Shown: in pieces, positions 697-37,703 of the stretch
Layout: every line of letters starts with the position of its first letter
How positions within the stretch are numbered: position 1 is the stretch's first letter
Virus record (IMG/VR): IMGVR_UViG_3300032296_000770
Location: 1-37,703 of that record
Reading direction: 5' to 3' (one strand)
DNA: 37,703 nucleotides
Source of the DNA: a virus
The notes under the pieces: generated by a model
The model's database searches: none
What the model was told of the DNA's origin: nothing
The model's input: only the letters and a program-made list of their open reading frames with translations
Program-made: the position numbers and the translations under genes

Positions 697-898
697 TTGC
701 CTACGTCAAAAGGCACAGCCAGAGCGGCTTTTGGCCATTTGTAGGCAATGTAGCCATTTATTTTTAGATGTTAGGTAAGGTAATAGATATATGGGTATAA
801 AGTGGCCTATATGGGCGCGCCGTGTGCCAATTCGCGCCGATTGCGTTGGGGGTCGGAGCGATTTAAAATCGTTGCCTACATTGCCTACATTGCCTACA
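697..898. repeat. TTGCCTAC repeat family, direct and inverted
   Basis: TTGCCTAC occurs at 697-704 and inverted (GTAGGCAA) at 741-748. A 9-bp unit, TTGCCTACA, is then repeated three times in tandem at 872-898, ending 14 bases before the ATG at 913. The core GTAGG is shared with the 653-682 iterons. Likely operators of the divergent control region or origin iterons. Confidence 0.75.
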
Positions 899-912
899 AT
901 TTTCATTTTGAT

Positions 913-1158
913 ATGAAAACTCCTGGTCGCCGCGCCTCTGTTCGCACGCGCAATTTCCGCCGGTTTTTGTCCGATGCCGATGCCGCGATTCTTGCGGCCG
1001 CTGGTCATGGTGATATGTCCGCCGGCTTTAAAAACTTATTGGCCGCGTATCAAAAACTCTATTCTTGCGGCCTGATAACCCTAGATGATATTGATTGTCA
1101 TTTAGATAAATATGCACAATCAAACATATCTAACGGCACGGATAAACCTATTAGCTAA
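913..1158 (+). CDS. Putative small DNA-binding protein, 81 aa
   Basis: The frame is open from 802, but the part before 913 is made of repeat DNA, so ATG 913 (MKTPGRRASVRTRNFRRF...) is preferred; neither start has a clear Shine-Dalgarno sequence. The N-terminus is very basic. The segment LAAAGHGDMSAGFKNLLAAY resembles the 'GDGNLSxGIRxL' pattern of small ribbon-helix-helix-like phage and bacterial proteins, from memory only. Its position directly behind three tandem TTGCCTACA repeats suggests that it binds them and controls its own expression and the leftward operon. This role is inferred. Confidence 0.55.
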   Translation: MKTPGRRASVRTRNFRRFLSDADAAILAAAGHGDMSAGFKNLLAAYQKLYSCGLITLDDIDCHLDKYAQSNISNGTDKPIS

Positions 1159-31523: not shown

Positions 31524-33494
31524 ATGACCATATTGTTTGCAGATTTCGAGACCCGCAGTCGATGCGACCTTCCGTCGCGCGGCGGGTACAACTACAGCTT
31601 AGACGCAAGCACATCCATCCTGTGCTTTTCCTACGCATTTGGAGACGACGATGTACAAACGTGGACGCCAGATCAACCATTCCCTGAATCCGTATCAGAA
31701 CACATTCGCGCTGGTAAACAACTGCGGTTTCATAACGCCGGTTTTGATCGTCAGATCTTTTGGAATGTCTTATGCCAAGATTTTGGCGTACCAAAGCCTG
31801 CGCTTGAACAATTCTATTGCACCGCTGCACAAGCGCGAGCGAACTGCTTACCTGGCAGCCTTGAAGACGTCGGACGCGCCATCAGCAGTCAAATGCGCAA
31901 AGACCACCGAGGTGGACAGCTTATCCGACTACTTTCCATCCCTCGCGCTGATGGATCGTTTAACAATTCGCCAGAGCTGATGGCCGAGATGATCCGCTAC
32001 TGCGAACAAGATGTCCGTGCCATGCGCGCGATCAGCAAGGCCATGCGCCCGCTGTCCGACGAAGAGCTGGCCGACTACCACACAAATGAGCGCATCAACG
32101 ACCGTGGCGTGCTGCTCGACCTGCCACTGGCGCAGGCTGCCATCCGTTACGCGGAGGCCGAGAAAGCGGAGATTGAGAATCTTGTCGTCGAGTTGACCGA
32201 GGGTGAGATCGCGTCCGTGCGCAGCCCGAAAATGAAAAAGTGGGTGATGGATCGCATCAAACCGCAAGCGTTGAAGTTGATGGAGACGTACAAAGACGGC
32301 GACTTGAAGTACAGTATCGACAAGACTGTACGCGCCAATCTGCTAACGTTTGCCAAGGAGAACCCCGATGAGATTCCGACCCATGTTGCGGACGTCATTC
32401 AATGCGCAGATGACCTCTGGGCGTCGTCGGTTGCGAAGTTCGGCCGCCTTGCAAGTCTGGCAGACGAAGACGATCACCGAGTACGAGGTGCTTTTGTCTT
32501 CGCCGGAGGATCTGCCACTGGACGTGCTTCGAGCTATGGCGCGCAGGTCCATAATTTCAGCCGCGTCTGCGCCAAAGAGCCAGATGATGTTAGGCACGCT
32601 ATGGTCAGAGGCCACAGCATCACCCCAGGATTTGGAAAACGCGTTACGGATGTTCTCAAGGGAATGCTCCGGCCCGCACTGATACCGGCGCCGGGTAAGC
32701 AGTTCGTCGTCGCCGACTGGTCAGCTGTGGAGGCCCGCGTCACCGCCTGGGCGTCAGCCGACCCACAGGCCGAAGAGGTGCTACAGGTATTCCGTGAAGG
32801 CCGCGACATTTACAAACGTGAAGCCGCCGGCATTTACCGGGTGCCTGAAGACGCGGTCGACAAAGAGCAGCGCCAGATCGGCAAGGTCGCCATCTTGTCG
32901 CTAGGATTTGGAGGGTCGATTGGCGCCTTCTCAGCGATGGGTCGCAATTACGGCGTCTTCATGGCCGAGTCCGATTCGCGCCGCATTGTGGACGCCTGGC
33001 GGCGCGCAAACTCTTGGGCGGTGCGTTACTGGGGCAAGCTCGAAGAGGCGTACACAAGGGCGCTGCGCAATCCTGGGCGCGAGTTCACCGCTGGGCGAGT
33101 GACGTACCTATTCCAAGGCCAGCATCTTTGGTACGCATTACCGTCGGGTCGCATCCTGTGCTACCCATTCGCGCGGTTCGAGGGGGACGAGATCACGTAC
33201 GTCAAGGCGGCATGGAAACCTGCAGCAGATGCCAAAGAATGGCCACGGGCGCGCTTGTGGCGGGGTCTGGCTTGTGAGAACATAACGCAGGCGATCGCCA
33301 ACGATCTGCTGCGGCACGCTTTACGCCAGCTTCCTGACGTAGTGCTGCATATCCATGATGAAATTGTCCAAGAGACCGCCGACCCTGATGCACCCAATAC
33401 CCTGAAACAAGTGATGTGTACGCCGCCCGATTGGGCGGAAGGTTTACCTTTGAACGCCGAAGTCGAAGTAATGGATCGATACGGCAAAGGCTAA
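31524..33494 (+). CDS. Family A DNA polymerase with 3'-5' exonuclease, 656 aa
   Basis: Replicative polymerase. The exonuclease site has ExoI FADFETRS (Asp7, Glu9), ExoII HNAGFD (Asp75) and ExoIII YCEQD (Tyr159, Asp163). The polymerase site has motif A DWSAVEAR (398-405, catalytic Asp398), motif B RQIGKVAILSLGFG (Arg450, Lys454) and motif C HDE (611-613, Asp612). Lining up motif B with Taq and E. coli Pol I puts Leu458 at the Phe762 position and Phe462 at the conserved Tyr. No 5'-nuclease domain. It is preceded by a long hairpin covering its ribosome binding site and followed by a terminator. Confidence 0.96.
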   Translation: MTILFADFETRSRCDLPSRGGYNYSLDASTSILCFSYAFGDDDVQTWTPDQPFPESVSEHIRAGKQLRFHNAGFDRQIFWNVLCQDFGVPKPALEQFYCTAAQARANCLPGSLEDVGRAISSQMRKDHRGGQLIRLLSIPRADGSFNNSPELMAEMIRYCEQDVRAMRAISKAMRPLSDEELADYHTNERINDRGVLLDLPLAQAAIRYAEAEKAEIENLVVELTEGEIASVRSPKMKKWVMDRIKPQALKLMETYKDGDLKYSIDKTVRANLLTFAKENPDEIPTHVADVIQCADDLWASSVAKFGRLASLADEDDHRVRGAFVFAGGSATGRASSYGAQVHNFSRVCAKEPDDVRHAMVRGHSITPGFGKRVTDVLKGMLRPALIPAPGKQFVVADWSAVEARVTAWASADPQAEEVLQVFREGRDIYKREAAGIYRVPEDAVDKEQRQIGKVAILSLGFGGSIGAFSAMGRNYGVFMAESDSRRIVDAWRRANSWAVRYWGKLEEAYTRALRNPGREFTAGRVTYLFQGQHLWYALPSGRILCYPFARFEGDEITYVKAAWKPAADAKEWPRARLWRGLACENITQAIANDLLRHALRQLPDVVLHIHDEIVQETADPDAPNTLKQVMCTPPDWAEGLPLNAEVEVMDRYGKG

Positions 33495-33542: not shown

Positions 33543-35846
33543 TTGGAATTCCTTGATTATATACAGAATCTCGCGCCCGAGGGCGAAACAGCCTTAATCG
33601 TACGTCAAAAACCTATCCTATCCGACGGCAAGCTACAGTTCCACGCGGATGGCGCCGTCAAGTGCACATGGCCAGCCTACCTGCCCAAACACAAGCGCAA
33701 AGACGGCGAGAGCTGGTACGGCAACACAGCGTCCTTCATCAAAGACCGCTTCAAAGATGGGCGCCCTAGCGCATCAGCTGCCAATTGCGAGTACATCTTG
33801 GTGATGATGTTAGACGACATCGGCACCAAATCGAAGACACCACCGTTAGAACCCACCTGGATCATGGAGACGTCGCCCGGCTCGTTCCAATGGGGTTACG
33901 CATTCTCAGAGCAGCCGACCAAAGCCGATTTCGCCGCAGCGATCCGCGCGATCGCAGATGCCGGCTACACGGATCCCGGTGCCTGCAACCCGGTGCGCAA
34001 CTTCCGCCTGCCCGGCTCGGTCAACATCAAGCCAGGCCGCGAGAGCTTCAAGGCGCAGCTGGCACGCTTTAACCCAGAGCGCGAGTACACACTGGAGCAG
34101 ATCTGCGCAGCGCTCGACGTCACCCCTGTGGCCGGTGTCGGTCTTGGACCGGTGCCCATTCGCCTGCAGGACGACGGCAACGACGACGTCATGGCCTGGC
34201 TCTCCGAGCAGGGATTATTTCTGCGCCACACGAACCCTGAAGGCTGGGCGGGCGTCATCTGCCCGAACCATGCCGAACACACGGACGGCAACCCCGAAGG
34301 GCGCTACCACCCGGCTAACCGGGCGTACTGCTGCCTGCACTCGCACTGCATCGAACTCGGCTCGGCGGCTTTTCTGGAGTGGGTCGCAGCTAATGGCGGA
34401 CCACAGCACACGCCTGGCCCACGTCAGGAGCTGCTCGCCGCCGTCATGACAACCGCCTTGTCGAAAATCCCCGGCGCTGGCATATTCGAAGACACGGCTG
34501 CGCAGATCGTGCAGGACATGGCCGCCAAAGACGAGCAGCGCCAGAGCGCGCGCGGACAGAAGGAAGACTGGTATGAGCGCTTTGCGTATGTACAAGAGGA
34601 TGAAAGCTATTTTGATCTGCGCGACCGTCGGGAAATTTCTCGATCTACTTTTAACGCACTTTTCCGGCATGTCCCCTGCAGGTCCATACATAACGGCGCC
34701 AAAATTGAAGCGGCTACGTGTTTCGACGAGAACCGCGAATCGAAGGGCGCTCATGCGCTGGTCGGCATAACCTATGCTGCAGGCGACGATATTATCGTTC
34801 ACCGCAACGGCCATCAGTACGGCAACCGCTGGCGCGACGCCCGGCCTGCAGGCGTCCCAGGTGATGTGACACCGTGGCTCGACCATGTCATGCGCATGAT
34901 CCCGACCGACTTCGAGCGTGAGCATTTCCTAAACGCACTCGCCTTCAAGGTCCAACACCCGGACAAGAAAATCAACCACGCTATTTTGGTCGGCGGCCAT
35001 CCAGGATCGGGCAAGGACACCATGCTGGCGCCGTTTTTCTGGGCGATCGGCGGGTTGACTAAGCAGAACTGCAGCCTGGTCAAGAACGAAGACCTAAATA
35101 GCCAGTGGGGCTACGCGCTCGAATGCGAAGTGATGGAGATCGCGGAACTCCGCCAGTCTGAGGCACGCGACCGGCGAGCGCTGGAAAACGCTCTAAAGCC
35201 CATTATTGCCGCACCTCCAGAGCTGCTACAGGTGAACCGCAAGGGCCTGCACCCCTACATGGCACTAAACCGCGTGTTCGTTGTTGCCTTTTCGAACGAG
35301 CGCGCAGCGATTTCAATCCCGTCAAATGACCGCCGCTGGTTCTGCCTGTGGGCGGAAGCAGGACGCCTGCCTGAAGCGGACGCCTCGCGCTTGTGGCGCT
35401 GGTATCACAATGGCGGCTTTGAGGCGATCGCATCTTGGCTGCATCAGCGTGACGTGGCGGCCTTCAACCCTTCAGCAGCTCCACCGATGACGGAAGCAAA
35501 GGCGATCATGATCGACCAAGGGCGCAGCACGGCCGAATCGTACCTGATCGACTTGATCGCCGGCCGGCTGGGTGAGTTCTCCAGCGGCGTGATTGCATCA
35601 CCCTTTTTCGCGCTTTGCGACCGGCTGGCCGGTGCGGCGCCTGCAGGGGTGAAGATACCGCAGGCGGCGCTCCTGCACGCGCTCAGTGAAGCTGGCTGGG
35701 TCGATATGGGGCGCATTGGTTCCAGAGAGTTCCCGACCAAAAAACAGATTTACTGCGCGCCAGAGCTGGCTACCTTGTCGAAATCGGAACTGCGCCGCAT
35801 GGCCGAAGATGTACCGGCGCCTGCAGCGGTTCGACTGGTCAAATAG
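33543..35846 (+). CDS. AEP-type primase fused to SF3-type helicase (DUF5906-like), 767 aa
   Basis: Start TTG 33543 with GGAG six bases upstream. N-terminal archaeo-eukaryotic primase-like domain: acidic pair in MMLDDIG (Asp91, Asp92), IMETSPGSFQWGYAFSEQP and VRNFRLPGSVNIKPGRES. A zinc-type Cys/His module follows (CPNHAEH at about 240, CCLHSHC at about 263). The helicase has Walker A GGHPGSGKDT (484-493, Lys491), Walker B VMEIAEL and VFVVAFSNE with NDRRWFCLW for the sensor and arginine finger. It probably primes and unwinds DNA for the polymerase. A full replacement for DnaG/DnaB or T7 gp4. Confidence 0.9.
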   Translation: MEFLDYIQNLAPEGETALIVRQKPILSDGKLQFHADGAVKCTWPAYLPKHKRKDGESWYGNTASFIKDRFKDGRPSASAANCEYILVMMLDDIGTKSKTPPLEPTWIMETSPGSFQWGYAFSEQPTKADFAAAIRAIADAGYTDPGACNPVRNFRLPGSVNIKPGRESFKAQLARFNPEREYTLEQICAALDVTPVAGVGLGPVPIRLQDDGNDDVMAWLSEQGLFLRHTNPEGWAGVICPNHAEHTDGNPEGRYHPANRAYCCLHSHCIELGSAAFLEWVAANGGPQHTPGPRQELLAAVMTTALSKIPGAGIFEDTAAQIVQDMAAKDEQRQSARGQKEDWYERFAYVQEDESYFDLRDRREISRSTFNALFRHVPCRSIHNGAKIEAATCFDENRESKGAHALVGITYAAGDDIIVHRNGHQYGNRWRDARPAGVPGDVTPWLDHVMRMIPTDFEREHFLNALAFKVQHPDKKINHAILVGGHPGSGKDTMLAPFFWAIGGLTKQNCSLVKNEDLNSQWGYALECEVMEIAELRQSEARDRRALENALKPIIAAPPELLQVNRKGLHPYMALNRVFVVAFSNERAAISIPSNDRRWFCLWAEAGRLPEADASRLWRWYHNGGFEAIASWLHQRDVAAFNPSAAPPMTEAKAIMIDQGRSTAESYLIDLIAGRLGEFSSGVIASPFFALCDRLAGAAPAGVKIPQAALLHALSEAGWVDMGRIGSREFPTKKQIYCAPELATLSKSELRRMAEDVPAPAAVRLVK

Positions 35847-36988: not shown

Positions 36989-37633
36989 TTAAGCGGCCAA
37001 TTTGATGCGGATAACTTTGTTCATCTTGACGCCGTGCGCCGGGTAAGCAATTACTTTGATTTTCTTGTCATAGCAGGCGCGGCATGGTCCGCATGCGCCG
37101 CCATTGTCATATGCGCCGCACAAGGTCATGCCGCGTTTTGCATCGCCTGGAGTTGGCACAATCACGGAGCCGTGAAGGCCTTTTGTGTACTGGCCCGTCA
37201 CTGAATCGCTCGAGAACCGCACACTTACATTTTTCAGCGCTTGCATCTCTGACAATACTTGCCGAAATTTCGGAAACTTGTGCATGCGTGTCGGCAACCA
37301 GTGTTTTACCCATGGCGTGCGACGCATTACTTCAAGAATCTTTTCGGCCAAAGCGAGCGTATACATATCGCCCGAATCAAACCAGCGAAAGTGCGTATCT
37401 TTGGCTAGTTCGTCGACCATGTCGTCGCACCATTCGATGCGCTGCCAATCTTCCTTGTTGTGGCGCCGCGGCGCTTTGACGTTCTCAAACCGATAATTGC
37501 CGGTCGTGGCATAACAGCCGGCGCAGGCGTCGACTAGCACACCCGGCGCCGCTATCGAGCCTGGACACGTTTCGAGCGCTTGCAAAGACCATGAGCGCAC
37601 GCCGTCAAGTTTTGAAGTAACAGAGATTTTCAT
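36989..37633 (-). CDS. GP88-like cysteine-rich protein, 214 aa
   Basis: ATG 37633 with AAGGGA eight bases upstream is chosen over 37699; on the circle the start is base 51. The sequence agrees with the phage 'gene product 88' family. It has two Cys groups: Cys23, Cys37, Cys40 (VDACAGCYATTGNY) and Cys172, Cys181, Cys184, Cys187 (GGACGPCRACYDK). The middle alternates strands and helices, with FRWFDSGDM and VKHWLPTR. The pattern suggests metal or Fe-S clusters in an alpha/beta barrel, recalling radical SAM enzymes; this is inference. Its function is unknown. Confidence 0.82.
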   Translation of the reverse strand: MKISVTSKLDGVRSWSLQALETCPGSIAAPGVLVDACAGCYATTGNYRFENVKAPRRHNKEDWQRIEWCDDMVDELAKDTHFRWFDSGDMYTLALAEKILEVMRRTPWVKHWLPTRMHKFPKFRQVLSEMQALKNVSVRFSSDSVTGQYTKGLHGSVIVPTPGDAKRGMTLCGAYDNGGACGPCRACYDKKIKVIAYPAHGVKMNKVIRIKLAA

Positions 37634-37703
37634 TGGCCGGTTCCCTTGTGAGTGATTAATAAGCAAGACACATAAAGACAAATAGCGCGAGTGATGCAAA
37701 GCC
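37583..37703. repeat. Terminal direct repeat, right copy
   Basis: Exact second copy of bases 1-121. Removing one copy leaves about 37,582 bp of unique sequence and joins the minus-strand genes at both ends into one operon. Confidence 0.95.

Follow-up and report, generated by a model that had tools for sequence, protein, structure and literature searches.

Covariation in the wing of a phage primase-helicase suggests a residue-to-base code for its probable origin repeats

What is the function of the cluster of short repeats in the first kilobase of this viral genome, and which protein reads it? The window analysed here is the whole stretch of DNA, 37,703 nucleotides in length. In the first-pass annotation, five copies of TTGCCTAC were regarded as a second iteron family beside another one, the small basic protein encoded directly downstream was proposed as their ligand, and the region was named as a possible replication origin. 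We find that the array is very probably the replication origin of this uncultured phage. Across about 90 relatives, the covariation between protein and repeats suggests that individual amino acids of a hairpin in the phage primase-helicase each dictate one letter of the repeat.

Genome context

Because the record ends with an exact 121-bp terminal direct repeat, it is probably a circular assembly that is complete, with a length of 37,582 bp. Consistent with circularity, a gene of about 236 aa on the minus strand (36989–37699) has its start within the terminal repeat and continues up to the artificial record end. The phage is podovirus-like; its portal is of the P22/SU10 type, and it encodes its own PolA-like polymerase as well as an exonuclease, a helicase and a primase-helicase. 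The polymerase gene (31524–33494, plus strand) adjoins the primase-helicase gene. The array sits between divergent genes, and the terS gene is located 0.6 kb downstream of it. Among known phages, related DNA is limited to weak terminase matches and one related GenBank genome, MW202483. Relatives are found in MAG contigs binned as Rhodoferax and other bacteria, assignments too uncertain for naming a host.

A single array of nine iterons

The five copies of TTGCCTAC are found exactly where they had been annotated, at 697, 872, 881 and 890 on the plus strand and, inverted, at 741 on the minus strand. All lie within 201 bp, with no other copy in the window, and those at 872, 881 and 890 form a perfect 9-bp tandem (872–898, 100% match). 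Judged by number only, the excess over the window is modest (1.13 copies expected; five reached in 1 of 100 shuffles). Tandem Repeats Finder, run on the whole window, returns the blocks at 653–683 and 872–898 as the only strong tandem arrays of the genome, besides one weak match. The GTAGG core, whole or mostly, is common to GTAGGTCAT (653, 664 and 675), GTAGGCAAT (696 on the minus strand and 741 on the plus strand) and the degenerate GTAGCCATT (750). The common core described earlier is thus retained, but the division into two families is not; the nine sites, within 245 bp (653–897), make a single array in which the core is GTAGG and the tail may be either TCAT or CAAT; relatives exchange the two tails freely.

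The array is ordered as three forward sites (A), one reverse site (B), two forward sites of which the second is degenerate (C), and three reverse sites (D). Iterons A1, A2 and A3 (GTAGGTCAT, plus strand) occupy 653–661, 664–672 and 675–683 with a period of 11. Iteron B (696–704) is GTAGGCAAT read on the minus strand, while C1 (GTAGGCAAT, 741–749) and degenerate C2 (GTAGCCATT, 750–758) are on the plus strand. Iterons D1, D2 and D3 occupy 871–879, 880–888 and 889–897 on the minus strand with a period of 9, and just ahead of them is the motif GCGATTTAAAATC (858–870), kept in relatives. Flanked by iterons of the array is an AT-rich stretch, the presumed DNA-unwinding element (752–801), with 74% AT and at the 99.9th percentile of the genome. 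The locus combines clustered short direct repeats with an adjoining AT-rich element, and by covariation the repeats match residues 724–728 of a presumed initiator encoded in cis, as in iteron-type origins. The raw cumulative GC skew, proposed earlier as a check, has its minimum at about 2.6 kb, within 2 kb of the array, and its maximum at 24.9 kb; the agreement is rough and is confounded by gene orientation.

Conserved geometry and variable words in relatives

A terminase search gave 80 relatives and primase searches gave about 140 further loci, some overlapping. A geometry search blind to the repeated word was run over 116 distinct loci; it replaced a first 8-mer count and spacing score, dropped after picking the wrong repeats in some relatives. 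Loci with no clear array were left out (L101, L102, L110, L112, L121, L134, L083 and some others), as was the ambiguous L100. The layout in relatives is the same, with three plus sites, one minus site, two plus sites, AT-rich DNA and two or three minus sites, and in many relatives with enough upstream sequence this A-B-C-D layout precedes a homologue of the small basic protein. Over the 116 loci, C1 and C2 are usually 9 bp apart, B is most often 43 bp before C1, A is about 88 bp before C1, and D is 100–150 bp after. In 43 of 43 relatives' arrays tested, the 50 bp after C2 is more AT-rich than the locus.

The repeated word itself differs between genomes, while copies inside one genome usually share it. 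Words include GTAGG, GTGGG, GCACG, GCGGG, GAGGG, GTGGA, GTAGT, ATGGT, GTTGG, GTGTG, GTCGG, CTGGG and TTGGG. The array is kept in relatives, with its geometry conserved and its word variable.

The primase-helicase and its C-terminal domain

The proposed reader of the origin is the primase-helicase (33543–35846, plus strand; 767 residues). Its N-terminus matches RepB_primase, just above the cut-off, and not a Toprim-type primase. Residues 483–598 match DUF5906, an SF3-type helicase (39.6 bits against a curated cut-off of 27.6), and the protein has a profile match to the PDB 'Primase' entry 6k9c (E = 4e-6), which we take to be NrS-1 polymerase. Residues from about 660 to 740 (35520–35762, plus strand) are predicted to form a winged-helix domain. 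The AlphaFold2 model of residues 640–767 is a winged helix with pLDDT above 90 over most of its length, in which residues 724–731 lie in the wing hairpin. The structural neighbours of this domain are mostly winged-helix proteins, with low Z-scores of at most 6.6. A PDB profile search with the domain alone returned nothing meaningful. The P4 OBD (presumably 1KA8) is absent among the fold matches listed, an absence that says little. The assignment as a winged helix is based on the model and the neighbours, and not on likeness to the P4 domain. Covariation with the word points to wing residues 724–731 (R-I-G-S-R-E-F-P; 35712–35735, plus strand) as the specificity segment.

Wing residues covary with bases of the word

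One word was taken per locus, giving 94 distinct combinations of primase and word, and 563 variable columns of the primase were ranked for each base by adjusted mutual information (AMI). The top columns are 728 for base 1 (AMI 0.88), 727 for base 2 (0.61), 726 for base 3 (0.32) and 724 for base 4 (0.54), near-adjacent residues in reverse order. Arg728 occurs with G at base 1 in 78 of 78 combinations, while all 16 combinations with Ala, His, Gln or Ser at this position have A, C or T. Thr727 is accompanied by C or A at base 2 (12/13, the exception being L033, which has T), and Ser or Ala with T (81/81). His or Lys at 726 is found with G at base 3 (40/40) and Met, Asn or Thr with A (14/14), while Ala726 is permissive and accompanies G, A or T. 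Leu724 occurs with T at base 4 in seven of eight cases, an association that rests mostly on one clade; six GCACG arrays keep Arg724 and have C at base 4. For base 5 the residue is ambiguous, either 726 or 731.

Ancestry was controlled for with 45 disjoint pairs of nearest relatives. Changes in these sister pairs are coupled for base 1 with residue 728 (8/8 versus 0/37, P = 4.6e-9), base 2 with residue 727 (9/9 versus 4/36, 8e-7) and base 3 with residue 726 (20/21 versus 3/24, 1e-8); each of the three residues is the top column for its own base. Base 4 has no sister-pair support; residue 724 is not its top column in the 45 pairs, nor is it in the subset of loci with the small basic protein. The primases of L029 and L085 are 99.2% identical in the core, and a change from GAGGG with the wing GRVATREL to ATGGT with the wing GRIHSAEH separates them.

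Words were partly framed by eye, and an automated assignment made without protein information differs in 6 of 76 shared words. With the automated words, residues 728, 727, 726 and 724 are again at the top for bases 1–4 in the association ranking; in the sister pairs, 728 and 726 are the leading columns, and for base 2 two other columns score as high as 727. When relatives with at least 75% core identity are removed, the full word is predicted from the wing at 34%, compared with 0% from the core, 6% from the recognition helix and 6% by chance. The recognition helix was rejected as the specificity determinant, being a poor predictor (0.06 versus 0.34 for the wing). Drift of a base inside an array, where the side chain presumed to read it is lost, is counted as support for reading by the wing. 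Base 3 drifts by 12% with Ala726 and by 0–2% with other residues; base 4 drifts by 20% with Leu724 and by 7% with Arg724.

On the circle, a distance of about 2.5 kb separates wing and array, which could be exchanged in one tract, and the covariation might in principle reflect shared ancestry or hitch-hiking, with the two co-inherited and never in contact. The sister pairs, controlling for ancestry, argue against this, as does the one-to-one pairing of base 1 with a single residue. Among distant phages, a shared wing is accompanied by a shared word more often than expected by chance. The intervening DNA is mismatched where wing and array match; the window agrees with L003 and L086 in wing and array, but with L029 in much of the DNA between. 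The pair is therefore held together in spite of recombination, and we regard co-inheritance without contact as highly improbable. Equally improbable is a packaging (pac) site read by the small terminase, which would suit the position of the array just upstream of terS. TerS is identical in L003 and L085, and likewise in L027 and L026, while the words differ, and its best column reaches only 0.21 (for base 1). This reading was rejected, as TerS does not track the word.

The small basic protein downstream of the array

The last iteron ends at 897 and the D sites stand 14–15 bases before the ATG at 913, with no Shine-Dalgarno sequence in 898–912, in agreement with the earlier description. This ATG starts the gene of the small basic protein of 81 aa (p81; 913–1158, plus strand), which is conserved beside many arrays. 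The array might be an operator through which this protein represses both its own and the divergent early genes. Its start codon borders directly on the last three sites, which contain a −35/−10-like pair, and its consensus pattern resembles that of ribbon-helix-helix proteins. A ribbon-helix-helix fold is a guess from the sequence, however; the monomer model has helices and no strand, and profile and fold searches give no support for this or any other DNA-binding fold. The protein has no match in phage records.

The variation of the protein also speaks against its being the ligand, as had been proposed. Its columns are associated with the word at 0.28 at most (base 1), compared with 0.87 for primase residue 728 in the same set. 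L010 and L011 have an identical 81-aa protein beside different words, and L003 and L029 have nearly the same protein, again with different words. In all five pairs with at least 85% identity and different words, the primase wing differs too. The 81-aa protein does not track the word, and its role as repressor at the array is quite unlikely.

The D iterons form a sigma-70-like pair, TTGCCT-17-TACAAT (window 872–900), just before the 81-aa gene. Initiator binding at these iterons could shut off the gene. With this promoter-like pair inside the last three sites, the autoregulation suggested earlier may still occur through whatever binds there, but the 81-aa protein is not supported as the ligand and was rejected as the reader of the word.

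Proposed mechanism of origin recognition

The covariation indicates that domain and word are matched, which by itself would fit either an origin or an operator of the primase-helicase. The primase-helicase might be mainly a transcriptional regulator of divergent promoters at the array, with replication starting elsewhere. The array does sit between divergent genes, and the wing covariation would look identical. However, the AT-rich element at a fixed place in the array (43/43) and the SF3-helicase context fit an origin, and the genome has no other strong tandem array. We consider a mainly regulatory role unlikely. An operator role, perhaps at the promoter-like pair in the D sites, is compatible with an origin and may coexist with it. 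The suggestion that the region is a replication origin is supported by iteron geometry, AT-rich element and covariation with the primase-helicase. At a probability of roughly 0.87, we favour an origin to which the primase-helicase would bind via its C-terminal winged helix, with the wing setting base choice.

What the computation shows is the array with its conserved geometry, the AT-rich element, the covariation and the prediction of a winged-helix fold; we infer that the protein binds physically, that its residues contact bases, that the helicase is loaded and that replication initiates. The AT-rich unwinding element would be surrounded by nine 9-bp iterons in both orientations. The primase-helicase would bind the iterons through its C-terminal winged-helix domain, assemble at the array as an SF3-type helicase, open the AT-rich DNA and then prime synthesis for the phage polymerase. 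The β-hairpin wing would choose the bases of GTAGG in antiparallel order, residue 728 reading base 1, 727 base 2, 726 base 3 and 724 base 4, with residues 726 and 731 also influencing base 5. Our best reading is that residues and bases correspond in a nearly collinear code, weaker at base 3 and mostly from one clade at base 4.

Domain and word change together, and related phages would therefore differ in origin specificity. If single wing residues dictate single letters, many natural origin-initiator pairs would be readable from sequence. With somewhat better than even confidence, we propose that origin specificity across a large group of uncultured phages is set by a largely collinear antiparallel wing code, that this group keeps diversifying its word, perhaps as an escape from satellites, rival phages or nucleases that target origins, and that it holds dozens of mutually orthogonal origin-initiator pairs.

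Comparison with known systems

In winged-helix proteins, base choice usually falls to the recognition helix. The natural variation here suggests that neighbouring wing residues choose neighbouring origin bases, in an otherwise well conserved domain. To our knowledge, few simple codes of this kind, from residue to base, exist beyond zinc fingers and TALEs. Phage P4 has a second cis element, crr, besides ori; no second array of the word is found in the present genome by a search that could miss a weak element.

In the P4 alpha protein, a primase and an SF3 helicase are joined to a C-terminal winged helix, with which the protein binds repeats of the phage origin before unwinding and priming (PMC4234260). 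Here too, one protein has a primase, an SF3-type helicase and a predicted C-terminal winged helix, and iterons are at the probable origin. By analogy with P4 alpha, the simplest account would have an initiator encoded by the phage itself read the iterons of its origin. However, the P4 primase is of the Toprim type (PMC4234260), while the N-terminus here is RepB_primase-like; the protein is therefore described as working like P4 alpha and not filed as a member. In the literature searched, we found no code linking residues to bases for origins of the P4 type. The DUF5906 helicase match and the profile match to 6k9c are shared with NrS-1/DUF5906 proteins, but an iteron-reading winged helix is not described for NrS-1 in the literature searched. 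ORF904 of pRN1 also has a primase, an SF3 helicase and a C-terminal winged helix, but the pRN1 origin is a large stem-loop instead of iterons (PMC4234260).

Geminivirus iterons lie at fixed positions and have diverse sequences matched to the cognate Rep (PMC12548392). Rep is an unrelated rolling-circle protein with a different domain, so the precedent concerns diversification only. In PLE satellites, RepA and origin swap as a module and replication occurs only in cognate pairs, and an origin-directed nuclease (Odn) of the helper phage ICP1 has been suggested as a selective force (PMC8263062). Unlike in the array here, PLE RepA belongs to the RepA_N family and its iterons are semi-palindromic, of about 30 bp and with few variants. 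PLE/ICP1 is the only comparable case from the phage world that we found. No description of the origin of this phage group or of a wing-based code was found in the literature searched, most subscription journals being outside its scope. The system opens to test how an initiator and about nine scattered sites shift specificity together, and what selects for the shift; the natural pairs would provide a ready set of orthogonal replication origins.

Further repeats in relatives

A second repeat family, AAGTTAGT/ACTAACTT, is present in or beside the origin region of L115, L102, L114, L162 and L110, about 2.8–3.6 kb after the primase end. In L080 and L081, more distant terminase relatives, TTCGGATG/CATCCGAA arrays with many copies about 10 bp apart are located upstream of terS. 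Additional iteron clusters beyond the basic nine-site layout are seen in L207, L208, L214, L213 and L209. In L026, L028, L092 and L143, whose wings have Gly726 and Thr727, GCGGG and GAGGG copies are mixed within one genome, and these mixed arrays offer a natural test of whether base 2 is read in a relaxed way.
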